Below are positions 43,869 to 53,642 of a stretch of 59,210 nucleotides of DNA, in pieces. The position numbers and the translations under genes were made by a program. The DNA is taken from NCBI GenBank assembly GCA_009909005.1, contig JAAAOG010000164.1:1-59210 (forward strand), given 5' to 3'. Source of the stretch: Alphaproteobacteria bacterium. Its GTDB lineage: Bacteria > Pseudomonadota > Alphaproteobacteria > DSM-16000 > Inquilinaceae. The notes beneath the pieces were generated by a model. That model did not search any database and was not told the origin of the DNA. It worked only from the letters and a program-made list of their open reading frames with translations. The number at the start of each line of letters is the position of its first letter. Position 1 is the stretch's first letter.

Positions 43869-43995
43869 GAAAAAATCTATGCCGGTCATTCTATGGTAAT
43901 CATCGCTTTCTTGTCTAATTTTATGGCCATATTGACTTGGAAGGGGGTTTAATACTATTTTGCGATAGTATAAGCCTTTCTGGGAGTTGATCGAA

Positions 43996-44496
43996 ATGCC
44001 GGCTTTCAATTGGGTGGCTATCCTAAGTCTTGGTGTGGTGGGATTAGGTTTCCTTTTAGCCTTCCTCGCCTATCGATTGCTGGATAAAGCGCAAGAGGCT
44101 CCTTATTTGGACGATTCTATTATAAAGAGTATAAGAGCCTACATGATATTTTCTGTAGTGATTGTGATAGTGGGGCTGGCATCGGAAGCAGCCCGTCACA
44201 TTATGACTATCTATCATTCGCCAGACTATGCAACGAAGTCTGATATAAATGCAATTTCAGCTCAGCTTTTGGAGGCGCAGGAAGCGCGAGAAGACCTAAG
44301 AAGGTTGATAGAGGGTGCGAGCCGTAATCAGCAAGCGACCCTCAGTAGTTTTGACAATGATCTTAGGCAGATAAGCGGCATGGCAAATTATCTTCGTGAA
44401 AGGGTTGATGGAGCTTATGATAGGATAAGTAGAATTGAAAGTGATTTTCGTGGATGGCAACGCAGAGTGCTTGAGGCTAGTCCCTTGCAGGATTAA
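43996..44496 (+). CDS. Unknown AT-rich two-helix membrane protein with coiled coil
   Basis: A 166-residue protein with two hydrophobic helices (ILSLGVVGLGFLLAFLAY and YMIFSVVIVIVGLASEAA) followed by a long charged helical tail (ISAQLLEAQEAREDLRRLIE and NYLRERVDGAYDRISRIES) likely to form a coiled coil. ATG 43996 has a GGGAG site with 9-nt spacing; TTG 43987 is possible. Base and codon use are AT-biased, unlike the radC gene before it, so it was probably acquired. It stands alone between radC and a convergent aldose epimerase. I recognise no family. Confidence 0.75.
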   Translation: MPAFNWVAILSLGVVGLGFLLAFLAYRLLDKAQEAPYLDDSIIKSIRAYMIFSVVIVIVGLASEAARHIMTIYHSPDYATKSDINAISAQLLEAQEAREDLRRLIEGASRNQQATLSSFDNDLRQISGMANYLRERVDGAYDRISRIESDFRGWQRRVLEASPLQD

Positions 44497-44505
44497 AATA
44501 AAAAT

Positions 44506-45390
44506 TCAGGAATTAATGACCCGGAAGCGGACGCGGCCGGCCATGCGCTCGCCCGGGAACAGCACCCGGAGCCCGGTATTGGTGAACCCGCGGGCGCGCA
44601 GATTGACCGCGTCATTGGCATGGCTGGCCGGCTCCACACAGAAGAAATCTTCGTGCGGCGGGTTGTAGATCACCAGATTGCCGAAGACGCGATCGGCCTC
44701 GATCGCCAGCGACAGCCCTGACGGCCAGTCGATTCGCGCCTCGCCCGTCCAGCCGCCGAAGCAATTGTCGACGACGATGTCGTTGATCACCCGCCCCGCA
44801 GAGAAATTCCAGGCATCGGGGAGGGCAATGGGTCGGCTGGGCAGTTTCCATTCGTCGTTCTCCCAGACATGGCCGAGGCCGGCCGTCAGCACCGTTCCGG
44901 AGGGTTTGGGGAAGAAGGGATGCAGGCCCAGGCCCGCCGCCATGAGAAAGGTCGAATCATTGGTCACCGAAATCATCGCCTCCAGCCCGTCATCGCGCAG
45001 CCAGAAGGTCTCGGAGGCGGTGTAGCACCAGGGCCAGTCGGCGGCGTCATGGCGAAAGGACAGGGTGACCGCGTCGCCGTGCCGGTCGGTCACCGACCAG
45101 TTGCCGCGCCAGCCATGGCCATGAATCACATGGGGTTCCGGCGGAAAATTGCAGGGTAACGTGTGCAACTGACCGGCAAAGACGAATTGTGCGTATCCGA
45201 TACGATTGGAGAATGGCACCAGCGGAAAACATGCCATATCTAAGGGGTTGACAGAATTGGTCGGAGTCGGTCGCATTAACGGAGTCGGCGTATCTTCGGT
45301 AGAATGTAATTCGAAAGCTCTAATAGAGCCCCCGTTGGCTGCATCGAGGACGAGCCGAAAAGGTAGCTTTTGCAACGAGATCAGTGACAT
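44506..45390 (-). CDS. Aldose 1-epimerase family protein
   Basis: A 294-residue mutarotase-like enzyme that interconverts alpha and beta sugar anomers. The catalytic region His lies in VIHGHGWRGNW, a second His in AAGLGLHPFFPKP, and the catalytic Glu in DFFCVEPASHANDAVN. These fit the galactose mutarotase-like (YeaD/YihR-like) branch. ATG 45390 was chosen over a longer frame. The first ~70 codons are more AT-rich than the rest. It is divergent from the xylulokinase-like gene, so they share the 144-nt region between. Confidence 0.87.
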   Translation of the reverse strand: MSLISLQKLPFRLVLDAANGGSIRAFELHSTEDTPTPLMRPTPTNSVNPLDMACFPLVPFSNRIGYAQFVFAGQLHTLPCNFPPEPHVIHGHGWRGNWSVTDRHGDAVTLSFRHDAADWPWCYTASETFWLRDDGLEAMISVTNDSTFLMAAGLGLHPFFPKPSGTVLTAGLGHVWENDEWKLPSRPIALPDAWNFSAGRVINDIVVDNCFGGWTGEARIDWPSGLSLAIEADRVFGNLVIYNPPHEDFFCVEPASHANDAVNLRARGFTNTGLRVLFPGERMAGRVRFRVINS

Positions 45391-45534
45391 CTTATGCTGT
45401 GTCTCTTCATTTGGCGTGCTATTGTCACATTGTTGAGTGCCGGACACGCACGGACGCGAGAGTACTCGACGTTTCAACTCAATCAACAAAAATCGGCACG
45501 CAGGAGCCGATGAGTCAGGAGTGAAAGCCGTCCC

Positions 45535-47010
45535 ATGTACCTTGGTGTTGAGTTGGCGCGCCGAGCCGTCAAGGCGCTTCTCGTCGATGACGCGCAGAAC
45601 GGTCTGGCGCGGTCCGCCGCCCCCTTTTCCGTCAGCCGGCCGAAGCCGGATCGGGTGGAACTCGATCCCGACGACCTGTGGGAGGCATTACGAACCGCTC
45701 TCGGCAAGCTCCGCAAGGCACAGCCGCAGGCCTTCGACGCCGTGAAGGGTATGGGGATCGGCTCCGACCTTCACGGCACGATCCTGGTCGACGCGGAAGA
45801 CCGGCCGGTCTCCCCCGCCATCCTGGACGAGGATCGCCGTGCGAGCGAGGAAAGCGAGGCCCTTGCCGGGGATTTTCCGGCGATCGCCGCCCGGACCGGC
45901 CACATTCCGGGGCCGGGCCATGCAGCCGCTGTCGTCCGCTGGCTTGTCGTGCATGAGCGCAAGGCCTGGGCCGCCGCGGCGAGGGTCCTGCAGCCGAAGG
46001 ACTATCTCTTGCTCCAGCTGACCGGACGGGCCGTGGCCGACCCGTCCGATTCGTCGTGGACGCTCTGGGTTGACCCCGCGGCGCGCGGCTGGTGCGAGGA
46101 AGCCCTGACCGCTTCCGGCATGCCGGTCGACAGGTTGCCGGAGATGGCCCCGGCACGCAGCGTCGTCGGTCCGATTGATCCGGATGCGGCCCGGGACCTT
46201 GGTCTGCCCGCGGGTGCCATGGTCACGCTCGGCTGCGGCGGCGATGCCGCCCGGGCTCTGAGCGTCGGGGCGATCGAGGGTGGGGCCGGCTTCGCTGCGC
46301 TGGGCGAGGCGGGCGGACTGGTTGCGACCCGCGGCGATTCGCCGGCGGAAGGGTCGGGGCCCGGGATCGTGCGGTCGTGCCATGCCCTTGAAGGCGTGTG
46401 GCTGGATAGTGCGCCGATCCTCGATGCTGCCGGTTGCCTGGCCTGGCTGGCCGGACTGACCGGTGCCTCGAACGAGCAGGCGCTGCTGGCGGAAGCCGGA
46501 CAGGTCGATCGCGATACCGGATCGCTGCTGTTCCTGCCCTTCCGATCCGGTGCTGCCGATCCCTTTCACGATCCCAACGCCAAGGGCGTCCTTTATGGGC
46601 TGGTCGAGACGACCCGTCGGGCCGACCTGACGCGGGCCGTGCTGGAAGGGATGGCCATGGCCTATGCCGAAGGCAAGGAGGCTCTGGCGGCGGCCGGTCA
46701 TGCCATCGGCGAACTGTCGGTCACCGGCAGCGATGTCCGTTCGCCCTTCTGGGGCCGGATCCTCGCCTCGGCCCTTGGTACGCCGCTGATCTTCCACAAG
46801 GACGGCAGCAGCTATGCCGCGGCGTTCGGTGCGGCGCGGCTGGCGCGGCTGGCTCTGACGCAGGAGTCGGCGCAACAGGTCTGCACCCGGCCGGCGGCCG
46901 ATTTCACGGCGCAGCCGGTATCCTCGCTGGCCGGCCGCTACACCGCCAAGCGGGAGAGTTTCCGGAAGCTGTTCCGCGCGCTGCAGCCGAGTTTCGCCGA
47001 TCTGCCATAA
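45535..47010 (+). CDS. Xylulokinase-like FGGY protein with eroded catalytic motifs
   Basis: A 491-residue protein that aligns end to end with E. coli XylB (from memory), including VSRPKPDRVELDPDDLW, SDSSWTLWVDPAARGW and DPFHDPNAKGVLYGL. Key active-site motifs differ. XylB IDLGTSGVK is VELARRAVK here, so Asp6 is Glu and the phosphate loop is lost. GQMHG is SDLHG, LWNDGR is LDEDRR, GGGDNAAG is GCGGDAAR (catalytic Asp233 aligns with Gly236), LGTSGV is LGEAGG, and GGGARS is GSDVRS. It may be a pseudoenzyme or have a changed activity. The frame is intact for the full length, arguing for selection rather than decay. Confidence 0.88.
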   Translation: MYLGVELARRAVKALLVDDAQNGLARSAAPFSVSRPKPDRVELDPDDLWEALRTALGKLRKAQPQAFDAVKGMGIGSDLHGTILVDAEDRPVSPAILDEDRRASEESEALAGDFPAIAARTGHIPGPGHAAAVVRWLVVHERKAWAAAARVLQPKDYLLLQLTGRAVADPSDSSWTLWVDPAARGWCEEALTASGMPVDRLPEMAPARSVVGPIDPDAARDLGLPAGAMVTLGCGGDAARALSVGAIEGGAGFAALGEAGGLVATRGDSPAEGSGPGIVRSCHALEGVWLDSAPILDAAGCLAWLAGLTGASNEQALLAEAGQVDRDTGSLLFLPFRSGAADPFHDPNAKGVLYGLVETTRRADLTRAVLEGMAMAYAEGKEALAAAGHAIGELSVTGSDVRSPFWGRILASALGTPLIFHKDGSSYAAAFGAARLARLALTQESAQQVCTRPAADFTAQPVSSLAGRYTAKRESFRKLFRALQPSFADLP

Positions 47011-47291
47011 GGCAGGTGCCGCGACCGCACGCCGGGACAGACGAGACCGAGCGCGCCGCTCCCGTCGGACGGAATGCCTTGTCCGGCCGGGTGCGGCACT
47101 GATTTGCCCGGGCGGGAAACCGAAACACTTGTCGGCTGACGATCACGCAATTATCGTAGCGCCGCCATGGGCGATGCGCCTGTGGTGCATGCCGGCCGGC
47201 ACGAGACGCTGGTCAGAGAGCTCCAAGAAAACTTGATCATAGGGAAGAGTCGTCCCGGGCTGGTGGGCCAGCCAGCAAGGATAAGGCGAGG

Positions 47292-48218
47292 ATGGAATAC
47301 TTTCTTCAGCAGCTGATCAATGGTCTGACTCTTGGAGCAATCTACGGTCTGATCGCCATCGGCTATACGATGGTCTATGGCATTATCGGCATGATCAACT
47401 TTGCTCATGGCGATATCTACATGGTCGGCGCTTTTATTGCGCTGATGGGGTTCCTGCTTCTCGGCTTCAGCGACGTCGCCTATCTCTCAATTCCGATCGC
47501 CATCCTTCTGGTTCTGGCCTTCGCGATGCTGTTTACCAGCGTCTATGGCTGGACGGTGGAGCGGCTGGCCTATCGGCCGTTGCGCGGCTCGTTCCGCCTG
47601 GCGCCGCTGATTTCGGCCATCGGCATGTCGATTTTCCTGCAGAACTATATCCAGCTGCTGCAGGGTGCCCGCGTGAAACCGCTGCCGCCGGTGGTGCAGG
47701 GCGGCCTGAACCTGACGACGCCGATCGATGGCGGCTTTGCGGTGACCATCAGCTATTTGCAGATCATCATCATCGTGATGACGGTGGTCCTGATGACTGC
47801 CTTTACGCTGCTGATCGCCAAGACCTCGCTTGGCCGCCAGCAGCGAGCCTGCGAACAGGACAAGCTGATGGCGGCACTGGTCGGCGTCGATGTCGACCGG
47901 ACGATTTCCATTACCTTTGTCACCGGGGCTGCGCTGGCGGCCGTCGCCGGCCTTATGCACGTCATGTACTATGGCGTCATTCACTTCTACATCGGTTTCC
48001 TTATCGGTATTAAGGCCTTCACCGCTGCCGTCCTTGGCGGCATCGGCTCGCTGCCCGGCGCCATGCTGGGCGGCCTGCTCATCGGCTTTATCGAGGCCTT
48101 CTGGTCCGGCTATTTCTCCGTTGAGTACAAGGACGTGGCCGCGTTCTCCATCCTGGTGCTGGTCCTGATTTTCCGGCCCACCGGCCTGCTCGGGAAACCC
48201 GAGATCGAGAAGGTCTGA
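47292..48218 (+). CDS. livH: Branched-chain amino acid ABC permease LivH
   Basis: A 308-residue inner-membrane permease with about eight helices. The opening LINGLTLGAIYGLIAIGYT and MVYGIIGMINFAHGDIYMVG are typical of LivH, and TAAVLGGIGSLPGAMLGGLL is the coupling region near the C-terminus. It heads the liv operon: livM begins 4 nt after its stop. A 281-nt gap upstream holds its promoter, though no clear elements are visible. The full set HMGFK is present, so uptake of leucine, isoleucine and valine is likely. Confidence 0.96.
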   Translation: MEYFLQQLINGLTLGAIYGLIAIGYTMVYGIIGMINFAHGDIYMVGAFIALMGFLLLGFSDVAYLSIPIAILLVLAFAMLFTSVYGWTVERLAYRPLRGSFRLAPLISAIGMSIFLQNYIQLLQGARVKPLPPVVQGGLNLTTPIDGGFAVTISYLQIIIIVMTVVLMTAFTLLIAKTSLGRQQRACEQDKLMAALVGVDVDRTISITFVTGAALAAVAGLMHVMYYGVIHFYIGFLIGIKAFTAAVLGGIGSLPGAMLGGLLIGFIEAFWSGYFSVEYKDVAAFSILVLVLIFRPTGLLGKPEIEKV

Positions 48219-48222
48219 GCCG

Positions 48223-50400
48223 ATGAACGTCCCTGCAAGCTCCACCGGCCCGGCATCCGGCGCGGCTGCCGGTGCCGCCGAAGGTCCGGCCGGGCCCGCG
48301 CCGCCGGCCGGCACAGGCCTGTTCCGCGCAATCGCGCGGGAGGTATTGCTGGCCGGCCTGTTGGCCTTCGGTCTGTTCATCACGGTGGTCGGCATTCAGA
48401 CGGTCGAGTCGGCCGGCCGGCTGATCATCGAATTCCGCTTCGCCGACGTCGCCGTGGCCGTGGCGCTGGTGATGCTGGGCCGGCTCGGCGGCGCCCTGAT
48501 CGCCGCCGGCTATCCCTTGCCGGTGATGGTGGGCGGCGGGCTGATCGCGGCGATCGGCATTGTCGTGCCCTTTCCAAGCCTTGTCCTGAAGATCGCCTGT
48601 CTGATCGGCGCGATCCTGCTGGCGCTCTATGCGGCCTTCAGGACCCGGGTTCCGCCAACCATCCTTTTCGGCCTGGTGGGTGGGGCGCTGATCCTCGCGC
48701 TGGCCCTGAATCTGCTGACCGATGTCAGCGGCGTGCTCGACATCGTGCTGATCTGGTATGGCGGCCTGACCCTGGGTGTCAGTCTGGTGAGCCGACCGGC
48801 CCTGGCGGAGCGCGGGCCCAGCCTCTTCGGCATGCCGCTCTGGATCCCCGCCGTCCTTGCCGCCGGCGCCGTCGCCCTGGCCATTGTCGTGTCGCAGCTG
48901 GCGACGGACCGCGAGCCGGTGGTCATCGAAACCCGCGACGGGCCGATGGCCGTCCTGCCGATGGAGCCGACCGCCGACGCGGTCGGGCAATATGTCGACG
49001 TCCCCCTGGCCGGTGGCGGGACGACCGAGCTGTACGCGTTCCAGCGTCCGCCGGAAGGCGTACGTACGGCCCGGATCGAGACGCCGGACGGAGACGCGTA
49101 CAGCGTCGCACTGGCCGAGCTCTGGTTCATCGACAGCAACACGGTCGGGCTGTTCGTTCTGTTCTACGTCTTCGTGGTGATCGCCGTCGTCATCGCCTAT
49201 CGCTTCCGCAATCTCATCGCCGTCAGCGATATGCCGGATGCGGCGACGGCCATGGACCAGGCGAGTCTGAAGGTTCAGGAGACCACGCGCTATATCGCCT
49301 TCGGCGGGCTGGCCTTTGCGATTCTTCTGCCCTTCATCTTCAACGACCGGTCTTCGGTCGACCTGGCGACGCTGGTCCTGACCTACATCATGCTGGCCTG
49401 GGGGCTGAACATCGTGGTCGGCCTTGCCGGCCTGCTCGACCTCGGCTTCGTCGCGTTTTACGCCGTCGGCGCGTACTCGTACGCCCTTCTCGCCGTCAAT
49501 TTCGATCTGAGCTTCTGGGCCTGCCTGCCGCTCGCCGGGGCGTTCGCGGCGCTCGCCGGGCTGATCCTCGGCTTTCCGGTGCTCAGGCTGCGCGGCGACT
49601 ATTTCGCCATCGTGACGCTCGGCTTTGGCGAGATTATCCGGATCATCCTGCTGAACTGGTACACGTTCACCGGCGGCCCGGACGGGATTATCGGCATTCC
49701 GCGTCCCTCCTTCTTCGGCATTGCCGATTTTACCCGCCGGCCGGATGAGGGCGAGCTCGCGTTCCACACCCTGTTCGGGCTGGAATATGACAGCCTGCAC
49801 CGGATCATCTTTCTTTATTACCTGATCCTGGCGCTCGCCCTGCTCGTGTGCCTGGTCAGCATCCGCCTGCGCAATCTGCCTCTCGGCCGTGCCTGGGAAG
49901 CGTTGCGGGAGGATGATACCGCCTGCCAGGCGCTGGGCATGAACCGGCGCAATGCCAAGCTGGCCGCCTTCACCATCAGCGCCATGTTCGGCGGCTTCGC
50001 CGGCTCCTTCTTCGCGACCCGCCAGGGCTTCATCAGCCCGGAAAGCTTCACCTTCCTCGAATCGGCGATCATCCTGATGATCGTCGTCCTGGGCGGCCTG
50101 GGCAGCCTTGCCGGCTGCGTGCTGGCGGCGCTGCTGGTCATCGGCCTGCCGGAGTTCTTCCGGGAGCTGGAGCAGTACCGCATGCTGCTGTTCGGCGCCG
50201 CCATGGTGGCGATCATGCGCTGGCGGCCGCGCGGACTTCTGTCGCATCGGGATCCGAGCGTGCGTTTCTTCGATCCCAAACGACAGCGAAGACGCGGGGC
50301 AACAGCCGCCAAGGGCGAGGCGCCGGCAGGGGCTGCAGCGGCCGGCGAGAGCCCGGCAGCCACGCGGCCGGCGACGACCGGCGTGGGGACGGCGCCATGA
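48223..50400 (+). CDS. livM: Branched-chain amino acid ABC permease LivM with very long N-terminal extension
   Basis: A 725-residue permease, against ~320-500 for usual LivM. The canonical core begins near residue 353 (ETTRYIAFGGLAFAIL) with LNIVVGLAGLLDLGFVAFYAVGAY, LRGDYFAIVTLGFGEIIRI and the C-terminal VVLGGLGSLAGCVLAALLV. The N-terminal part has a 30-residue Ala/Gly/Pro lead, about seven further helices, and a non-membrane loop (~residues 225-305, after a helix starting near VLAAGAVALAIVV) that may be periplasmic. The last ~35 residues are Ala-rich. The frame is continuous with neighbours (4 nt after livH; ATGA overlap with livG), so the extension is part of the gene rather than a misread. 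Confidence 0.93.
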   Translation: MNVPASSTGPASGAAAGAAEGPAGPAPPAGTGLFRAIAREVLLAGLLAFGLFITVVGIQTVESAGRLIIEFRFADVAVAVALVMLGRLGGALIAAGYPLPVMVGGGLIAAIGIVVPFPSLVLKIACLIGAILLALYAAFRTRVPPTILFGLVGGALILALALNLLTDVSGVLDIVLIWYGGLTLGVSLVSRPALAERGPSLFGMPLWIPAVLAAGAVALAIVVSQLATDREPVVIETRDGPMAVLPMEPTADAVGQYVDVPLAGGGTTELYAFQRPPEGVRTARIETPDGDAYSVALAELWFIDSNTVGLFVLFYVFVVIAVVIAYRFRNLIAVSDMPDAATAMDQASLKVQETTRYIAFGGLAFAILLPFIFNDRSSVDLATLVLTYIMLAWGLNIVVGLAGLLDLGFVAFYAVGAYSYALLAVNFDLSFWACLPLAGAFAALAGLILGFPVLRLRGDYFAIVTLGFGEIIRIILLNWYTFTGGPDGIIGIPRPSFFGIADFTRRPDEGELAFHTLFGLEYDSLHRIIFLYYLILALALLVCLVSIRLRNLPLGRAWEALREDDTACQALGMNRRNAKLAAFTISAMFGGFAGSFFATRQGFISPESFTFLESAIILMIVVLGGLGSLAGCVLAALLVIGLPEFFRELEQYRMLLFGAAMVAIMRWRPRGLLSHRDPSVRFFDPKRQRRRGATAAKGEAPAGAAAAGESPAATRPATTGVGTAP

Positions 50401-51272
50401 CGGACGGGATGCAAGGGGCCGGCGATCCGCCGCTGCTTGAGGTCGAACACCTGACCATGCGCTTCGGCGGTCTGGTGGCCATCGACGATGTTTCGTTCTC
50501 GGCGGCCGATCGCGCCATCACGGCGATCATCGGGCCGAACGGCGCCGGGAAGACGACCATCTTCAACTGCCTGACCGGCTTCTACAAGCCGACCGAGGGC
50601 ATGCTGCGGCTGCGCCGGGGCGGGAAGGACTATCTGCTGGAGCGGATGGAGGGGCACGACATCGCCCACCATGCCGGCATTGCCCGGACCTTTCAGAATG
50701 TCCGGCTCTTCCAGCGCATGAGCGTGCTGGAGAACCTGCTGGTCGCCCAGCACAATGCCCTGATGAAGGCGTCGGGGATGTCGATTCTCGGCCTGATCAG
50801 CGCGCCCTCCTACCGCAAGGCCGAGGCCGAGGCCATCGATCTTGGTGCCTATTGGCTCGACCAGGTGGGGCTGCTGTCCCGCGCCGATCTGGAGGCCGGG
50901 CACCTGGCCTATGGCGACCAGCGGCGCCTGGAAATCGCCCGGGCAATGTGCTCGCGGCCGTCGCTCCTGTGCCTCGACGAGCCGGCCGCCGGCCTCAATC
51001 CGCGCGAAACCGGAGAGCTCAACGGGCTCATCCAGATGATCCGGGACGAGCATCGCGTCGGCGTGCTGCTCATCGAGCACGACATGAGCGTGGTCATGCG
51101 CATCTCCGAACACGTGGTCGTGCTCGATTATGGGCGAAAGATTGCCGACGGCGACCCGGAAGCGGTCCGCCGCGACCCGGCGGTGATTCGTGCCTATCTG
51201 GGCGAGGAGGAGGATGAGGAGCTGCCGAGCGAGGTTGCCGGCGATATCGTCGACCATGCGGCCGGCGGGTGA
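50397..51272 (+). CDS. livG: Branched-chain amino acid ABC ATPase LivG
   Basis: A 291-residue ATP-binding subunit. Walker A is IGPNGAGKTT, the Q-loop region includes GIARTFQNVRLFQRM, the signature region is modified to LAYGDQRRLEIARAM as is usual in LivG, Walker B is LLCLDEPAAGLNP, and the H-loop is VLLIEHDMSVVM. The ~20-residue acidic C-terminal tail is longer than usual. Overlaps livM by four bases and is followed by livF after 9 nt. Confidence 0.96.
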   Translation: MTDGMQGAGDPPLLEVEHLTMRFGGLVAIDDVSFSAADRAITAIIGPNGAGKTTIFNCLTGFYKPTEGMLRLRRGGKDYLLERMEGHDIAHHAGIARTFQNVRLFQRMSVLENLLVAQHNALMKASGMSILGLISAPSYRKAEAEAIDLGAYWLDQVGLLSRADLEAGHLAYGDQRRLEIARAMCSRPSLLCLDEPAAGLNPRETGELNGLIQMIRDEHRVGVLLIEHDMSVVMRISEHVVVLDYGRKIADGDPEAVRRDPAVIRAYLGEEEDEELPSEVAGDIVDHAAGG

Positions 51273-51281
51273 GGGAGAGAC

Positions 51282-52013
<732 letters not shown>

Positions 52014-52031
52014 GGACGGAGAAGGGCGGGC

Positions 52032-52382
52032 ATGGAAGCAATCATCGGGACGACCATTCCGGTTTTCATCGGCCTGACCCTGGTGCTGTTCGGCGGCGCC
52101 GGGTTCCTGACCGGCCAGGCCCTGGCCAATGGCTGGCAGACGGGCTGGAAACTGGTGCCTTATTGCCTGCTCCTGACCTGCGGCGACCGCTTTCTCGTCT
52201 ATGGTCTGTTCGACGGCGAGCTGCTGTCGCTCAGCGGCTATGCTGTCGATTTTGTGGTGATCCTGGCCCTCGCGCTGACCGGCTATCGGCTGACCAAGGC
52301 CCGGAAGATGGTTTCGCAATACCCCTGGATCTACGAACGCGACGGCCTGTTCGGTTGGCGCGACCGTCATCACGCGCGTTGA
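52032..52382 (+). CDS. Small membrane protein of the liv operon (DUF6867-like)
   Basis: A 116-residue protein with three hydrophobic helices and a polar C-terminus (SQYPWIYERDGLFGWRDR). I recall proteins like this (DUF6867) in alphaproteobacterial liv operons between livF and the binding-protein gene; the position here fits. Function is unknown; an accessory to the permease is the simplest guess. A good RBS (GAGAAGGGCGGGC) precedes ATG 52032. Confidence 0.8.
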   Translation: MEAIIGTTIPVFIGLTLVLFGGAGFLTGQALANGWQTGWKLVPYCLLLTCGDRFLVYGLFDGELLSLSGYAVDFVVILALALTGYRLTKARKMVSQYPWIYERDGLFGWRDRHHAR

Positions 52383-52526
52383 CCTGCCCGCAAAGGGAGC
52401 GGCGCACGGCCCCCTCGCAAGGATATTGAAATTTATCAAAATTCCCGACAGGCTACGGCTTGCCGTTGCCGGCTCAAAGACGGCCGGTGCTGTACATCAA
52501 GCGAGCAAACAGGGAGTGCAAGGGAT

Positions 52527-53642
52527 ATGCGGAGTGTCAAGCGGAGCCTGCTGGGTGGCGTGGCTGCCATCGCCATGGCGGCGGCCTTCGGGTCGTCGGC
52601 TGCCGATGCCCAGACGATCATCGCCACCGCCGGACCGATGACCGGCCAATACGCCACCTTCGGCGAACAGATGCGCAACGGCGCCGAACTCGCCGTGGCC
52701 GACCTCAATGCGGCCGGCGGCCTCCTCGGCGAGGAGGTGGAACTCCGGATCGGTGACGATGCCTGCGACCCGCGTCAGGCCGTTTCGGTGGCCAACGAGT
52801 TCGTCAATGACGGCGTGGTCTTCGTGGCGGGCCATTTCTGCTCCGGCTCCTCCATCCCGGCCAGCCAGGTCTATACCGAGGAGGCGATTCTGCAGATCTC
52901 CCCGGCCTCGACCAACCCGGCGCTGACCGACGAGGGCGGCGACAATGTCTTCCGGGTCTGCGGGCGCGACGACCAGCAGGGCTCGATCGCGGCGGCCTAT
53001 ATTGCCGAGGTCTTCCCGGACGCGAATATTGCCATCGTTCACGACCGCACCGCCTATGGCAAGGGCCTGGCCGACGCGATGCGCGACGCGCTGAACGCGC
53101 TGGGCGTGGAAGAGACGGTGTATCAGGCCTATACCGCCGGTGAGAGCGACTACTCGGCCCTGGTTACCCGCCTGAATCGCGAGGCGATCGACGTTCTTTA
53201 TGTCGGCGGCTACCACACGGAGGCCGGGCTGATGGCCCGCCAGATGCGCGAACAGGGCATGGAGACGCAGCTGATCTCCGGCGACGCGCTGGTGACCGAA
53301 GAGTTCTGGGCGATCACCGGCGATGCCGGCGAAGGCACGCTGATGACCTTTGGCCCGGACCCGCGCGAGTTCCCGGCCGCCTCCGAAGTGGTCGAGCGCT
53401 TCCGCGCCCAGGGTATCGAGCCGGAAGGCTACACGCTCTACACCTACGCGGCGATCCAGGCCTATACGCAGGCCGTCGAAGCAGCCGGCAGCACCGATCT
53501 GGATGCCGTGATTGCGGCGCTCCGCGACAACTCCTTCGAGACGGTCATCGGAGACCTGACCTTCGACGACAATGGCGATATCGAGCAGCCGGCCTATGTC
53601 TTCTACGAGTGGGAAGACGGCAACTACAGCCAGCTGAACTAA
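52527..53642 (+). CDS. livK: Branched-chain amino acid-binding protein (LivJ/LivK type)
   Basis: A 371-residue periplasmic receptor. A signal peptide is visible (LLGGVAAIAMAAAFGSSAADAQ, cut after ADA near residue 28), then TIIATAGPMTGQYATFGEQM, GDDACDPRQAVSVANEFVND, VAGHFCSGSSIPASQVYTEE, and STNPALTDEGGDNVFRVCGRD, typical of LivJ/LivK. The Cys pair (DAC ... HFC) is conserved in this family. It closes the liv operon and is followed by a strong terminator. Confidence 0.96.
   Translation: MRSVKRSLLGGVAAIAMAAAFGSSAADAQTIIATAGPMTGQYATFGEQMRNGAELAVADLNAAGGLLGEEVELRIGDDACDPRQAVSVANEFVNDGVVFVAGHFCSGSSIPASQVYTEEAILQISPASTNPALTDEGGDNVFRVCGRDDQQGSIAAAYIAEVFPDANIAIVHDRTAYGKGLADAMRDALNALGVEETVYQAYTAGESDYSALVTRLNREAIDVLYVGGYHTEAGLMARQMREQGMETQLISGDALVTEEFWAITGDAGEGTLMTFGPDPREFPAASEVVERFRAQGIEPEGYTLYTYAAIQAYTQAVEAAGSTDLDAVIAALRDNSFETVIGDLTFDDNGDIEQPAYVFYEWEDGNYSQLN

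Follow-up and report, generated by a model that had tools for sequence, protein, structure and literature searches.

A full-length xylulokinase relative with an altered active site, probably a lineage-specific pseudo-xylulokinase, in a genome of the Inquilinaceae

The gene at 45535..47010 (+ strand) of the window, by which we mean the whole stretch of 59,210 nucleotides analysed here, encodes a relative of the xylulokinase XylB in which the motifs for ATP, phosphate and catalysis have all been replaced. The protein is probably a lineage-specific pseudo-xylulokinase, which would have kept its fold, lost the use of ATP after the pathway it served was broken, and been retained for binding or regulation. 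Annotating this gene as xylB would credit the organism with xylulose phosphorylation, an assignment that is almost certainly wrong.

Fold and active-site motifs

The open reading frame runs from an ATG to its stop codon without any internal stop and encodes 491 residues. Both FGGY domains are found at their expected extents (Pfam FGGY_N, E 2e-39; FGGY_C, E 2e-21), and the protein aligns over its whole length with the XylB proteins of Escherichia coli (2itm) and Brucella ovis (5vm1). The latter is the closest solved sequence (E 6e-88), followed by the former (E 3e-78). The NCBIfam model for XylB, TIGR01312, also spans the protein from end to end, with a score of 306.5 bits that falls 74 bits short of the equivalog cut-off (380.25). 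An AlphaFold (AF2) model has a mean pLDDT of 90.2 and a pTM of 0.91, and superposes on 5vm1 with a Foldseek E of 5.7e-45 (Z 48.3, rmsd 2.7, 481 residues); the sole stretch with pLDDT below 50, residues 338-340, lies in the loop that reads GERTP in kinases. The two-domain fold is predicted to have been kept, and in this respect the protein resembles the known XylBs (E. coli 2itm/2nlx, Brucella ovis 5vm1), with 33-45% identity. An earlier, sequence-only reading of this DNA had described a full-length XylB relative with an intact frame, in agreement with the frame, the domains and the end-to-end alignment, and the structural alignment to XylB that it had proposed as a check is provided by the match of the predicted model to 5vm1.

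The changes in the active site were defined by comparison with the E. coli and Brucella XylBs and 36 homologues (38 XylB/FGGY sequences), kinase residues being given in E. coli numbering and all coordinates being on the + strand. Catalytic Asp6 and the first phosphate loop, D-L-G-T-S-G, are replaced by E6-L-A-R-R-A11 (45550..45567; D6>E, G8T9S10>ARR). The substrate loop G-Q-M-H-G has become S77-D-L-H-G81 (45763..45777; G75Q76M77>SDL, H78 and G79 being kept), and W-N-D has become D98-E-D100 (45826..45834; W96N97>DE, D98 being kept). At G235-G-D237 (46237..46245) a glycine occupies the position of catalytic Asp233 and an aspartate follows it (GDNA>GGDA), in an alignment that is ungapped across the motif. 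The second phosphate loop, S252-L-G-T-S-G, reads A255-L-G-E-A-G260 (46297..46314); G335-E-R-T-P reads G339-A-A-D-P343 (46549..46563), overlapping the low-confidence segment of the model; and the adenosine loop G-G-G-A-R reads G398-S-D-V-R402 (46726..46740; G395G396>SD). Counted by hand, the ligand motifs change in net charge from about -3 to about -7; two arginines are new in the first phosphate loop and a glutamate in the second. Every motif that the sequence-only reading had named as altered (Asp6, GTS, QMHG, WND, Asp233 and GGG) is indeed changed in this alignment, but that list had missed two others, the second phosphate loop (LGTSG>LGEAG) and the GERTP loop (GERTP>GAADP).

These motifs are essentially canonical in all 36 homologues, also those encoded in genomes of this family, as well as in the E. 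coli and Brucella proteins, and the few departures seen are all in distant members (L022, for example). Two XylB matches with canonical motifs, L014 (G041:C1:263356-264810) and L104 (G606:C1:2199180-2200637), have one TAA inside the matched stretch. In a leave-one-out comparison of 21 canonical XylBs, each keeps 25 of 25-27 ligand-site invariants, whereas the protein of the window keeps 7/25, so that chance variation can be excluded. A local frameshift is excluded as well: the other two frames near the first motif hold no XylB sequence, and the alignment with the nearest homologue has no internal indels beyond two of one residue each.

In the FGGY kinase SePSK, alanine mutants of D8, T11 and D221, which are the equivalents of D6, T9 and D233, each have a much lower substrate-stimulated activity (PMC4880283). 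As every ligand motif is altered here, and as single mutations already cripple SePSK, a working sugar kinase is very unlikely. The non-kinase role that had been suggested for this protein on seeing its motifs is thus, as far as sequence can tell, very probably correct in its negative part.

Distribution, rate of evolution and selection

Orthologues with the same replacements were looked for and not found in the order (17 genomes), the class (385 genomes, a second sample being nearly identical to the first), the phylum (398 genomes) and plasmids, nor did a pattern scan of contigs reveal any. None of the full-length relatives recovered by the order, class, phylum, plasmid and pattern searches is closer than 45% identity, and none of the plasmid matches, as listed and before alignment, exceeds 43% identity over the full length. 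The motif replacement therefore appears private to the source genome (G000). It had been proposed earlier that the same replacements be looked for in orthologues, and orthologues with restored motifs had been named as a refutation; the orthologues that exist do keep the canonical motifs, which counts against a conserved family-wide role but speaks for a loss confined to this lineage. The altered XylB is known so far from one genome only.

The gene has also evolved at an unusual rate. Canonical XylBs from the genera of the family are mostly 60-77% identical to one another (that of G008 is lower), whereas the protein of the window reaches only 34-44% identity with each of them. Its maximum-likelihood branch measures 1.26-1.36, against 0.17-0.48 for the other XylBs, and is thus about three or more times longer. 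The corresponding branches of two neighbouring genes are ordinary, at 0.60 for the epimerase (0.56-1.19 in others) and 0.19 for RadC (0.22-0.36 in others), which rules out a generally fast-evolving genome or region; the acceleration is specific to the XylB-like gene.

Two lines of evidence suggest that this acceleration took place under constraint. Among the 21 canonical sequences 89 alignment columns are invariant, 25 of them in ligand motifs and 64 elsewhere; the protein keeps 7/25 of the former and 46/64 of the latter (Fisher p=2.4e-4, the ligand sites having been listed from knowledge of the family with the alignment already in view). For the XylB-like branch, omega=1 is rejected by a codon model (LRT 52) that favours low values; at omega 0.1 the fit is 2.7 log units below the best. 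Omega is rough here, synonymous sites being saturated, the branch length being at its upper bound and the model allowing no variation of rates among sites. The model is not improved by a late neutral phase added to the branch, and it becomes about 20 log units worse when neutral drift follows a branch of ordinary length; the site classes of the late-phase model were built on G235 and G236 instead of G236 and D237, a one-codon slip from which little effect is expected. The intact frame by itself says less. In neutral simulations with about 211 replacements a stop-free frame survives in 0 to 7.5% of cases, the gene being GC-rich, which makes the absence of stops weak evidence of selection when taken alone. 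The sequence-only reading had held that the frame is probably under selection, and it does look so from the site contrast and the codon model, for one sequence and with synonymous sites saturated.

Genome context and possible roles

The source genome (an assembly of 4.2 Mb in 230 contigs, 96% complete) contains no FGGY_N match other than the XylB-like protein, whereas matching relatives often have several; a paralogue of an intact XylB is accordingly not what we see, as there is no second copy. The genome is without any FGGY kinase with intact motifs, and hence without a glycerol kinase of this family, and relatives of the same family have up to eight XylB/FGGY-type matches. In three relatives (G003, G009 and G005) xylA directly follows xylB. 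No xylose isomerase was detected in the 230 contigs of the 96% complete assembly with a relative's XylA as query (E<=1e-30) or with TIGR02630, and tblastn with XylA found no remnant of the gene in the 281 bases (47011..47291) that separate the XylB-like gene from livH. A xylose isomerase in the genome is a supporting context feature of XylB rather than a strict requirement.

On the other side, the gene is flanked by a divergent aldose 1-epimerase gene (44506..45489, - strand; Pfam Aldose_epim E 1e-28), the product of which has its catalytic motifs intact (HGHGW, GLGLHP, D..F..W and EP.SH). The same head-to-head pair is found with a canonical XylB in G003, G006, G007 and G360, and the XylBs of family members have this neighbour in common with the XylB-like gene. 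The divergent pair is ancestral and was inherited from the kinase era. Since it also occurs with intact kinases, the epimerase says little about the role of the altered protein, and the earlier suggestion that this neighbour points to a sugar ligand is weak. Recent foreign import is not supported, as the nearest relative of the epimerase (54%) is that of G007, a family member in which the genes are laid out alike.

The history that we favour would begin with an ordinary XylB encoded head-to-head with an aldose epimerase, xylA adjoining xylB. Loss of the isomerase would have removed the need for xylulose phosphorylation, after which the cleft would have been rebuilt and the protein kept for a role needing a folded clamp and no phosphoryl transfer, a clamp that the two domains may still form. 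In FGGY kinases the two phosphate loops meet around the phosphates, and it is for this reason conceivable that a contact between an arginine of the first loop and the glutamate of the second could close the cleft without ATP. Because its substrate side has gained acidic residues (while keeping His80, Gly81 and Asp100), the ligand of the protein, if any, probably differs from xylulose. The most likely job would be that of a sensor or scaffold which binds a small polyol or sugar, a partner protein, or both. The fully specified version, that of an ATP-independent, ligand-gated sensor or scaffold whose cleft is closed by the Arg-Glu contact in a lineage that has abandoned xylose isomerization, is unlikely to hold in all its parts.

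A sensor or scaffold role would have precedents. Yeast Gal3, a galactokinase paralogue that serves as a sugar sensor, is a parallel in concept; it differs in having a GHMP fold, in still binding ATP and galactose, and in coexisting with the active paralogue Gal1. Closer in fold are GlpK with IIAGlc (1gla) and LsrK with HPr (5ya0), both among the fold matches of our model, in which the FGGY fold offers a docking surface to a regulator, although both are active kinases. Finally, Arabidopsis FLN1 and FLN2 are fructokinase-like proteins that have no kinase activity and are kept for a role exerted through partner proteins (PMC5864856). They belong to the unrelated pfkB fold, carry extra insertions, act in plant plastids and are conserved across plants, whereas the protein described here is a singleton.

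The evidence must also be weighed against three other readings. The gene could be a decaying relic, a kinase made useless by the loss of xylA and drifting without having yet acquired a stop codon or a frameshift. The absence of xylA, the long branch, the lack of the new motifs in any orthologue, the loss of 18/64 structural invariants and the occasional survival of the frame in neutral simulations of so GC-rich a gene are all compatible with drift. Drift should, however, strike ligand and non-ligand invariants alike, which the site contrast contradicts, and the codon model prefers a long constrained branch by some 20 log units over an ordinary branch with a late neutral phase; with a fold predicted at high confidence and a frame free of frameshifts added to this, we consider a relic rather unlikely. 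An improbable reading is that the acidic cleft, once rebuilt, became the site of another reaction on a sugar or polyol, probably one that needs no ATP. The pocket has indeed acquired several new acidic residues, rather than being emptied at random, and His80, Gly81 and Asp100 of the substrate side are retained, but we found no known FGGY-fold enzyme of such chemistry, and a single sequence does not allow a conserved set of new residues to be defined.

We judge it highly improbable that the protein has remained a sugar kinase in which Glu6 takes the place of Asp6 and the displaced Asp237 that of Asp233. Asp to Glu is a conservative change and the new aspartate adjoins the catalytic position; against this, the protein has also lost the two phosphate loops, the GER motif and the adenosine loop, the single SePSK mutants have a much lower activity, and an enzyme supplying xylulose was not detected in the genome. 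The pseudo-xylulokinase retained for binding or regulation thus seems the probable outcome of this comparison.

Pseudoenzymes as such are already known, and what is new here is a xylulokinase without catalytic and nucleotide motifs whose close relatives keep them; no report of a pseudo-xylulokinase was found in the literature searched, a search that left subscription journals largely outside its scope. If the protein is a functional pseudoenzyme, it would be a clear case of lost catalysis in the FGGY family, with intact family neighbours and a likely genomic cause in the loss of xylA, and would offer a clean system in which to ask why a kinase fold persists without the use of ATP.

Flanking genes

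Downstream of the XylB-like gene lie livH-livM-livG-livF and a binding protein gene (47292..53642, + strand), which encode a branched-chain amino-acid ABC transporter. We treat them simply as neighbours of the XylB-like gene. In G005 (L092:5289-7285) the epimerase gene stands head-to-head with livH and no xylB lies between them, xylB and xylA being located elsewhere; in the window these two genes stand on either side of the XylB-like gene. The order epimerase - XylB-like - livH seen in the window could have originated by deletion of xylA.

On the far side of the epimerase gene, after radC, a 169-aa ORF with a TTG start (43987-44496) encodes a protein with a hydrophobic N-terminal half and matches no Pfam family. 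The livM ORF of the window is longer (725 aa) than that of G005 (499 aa), and the two align in blocks at about 37-139 and 320-719. The 180-200 or so residues between these blocks are unmatched in G005, whereas the alignment with G010 runs through them, and they are therefore common to at least one relative.
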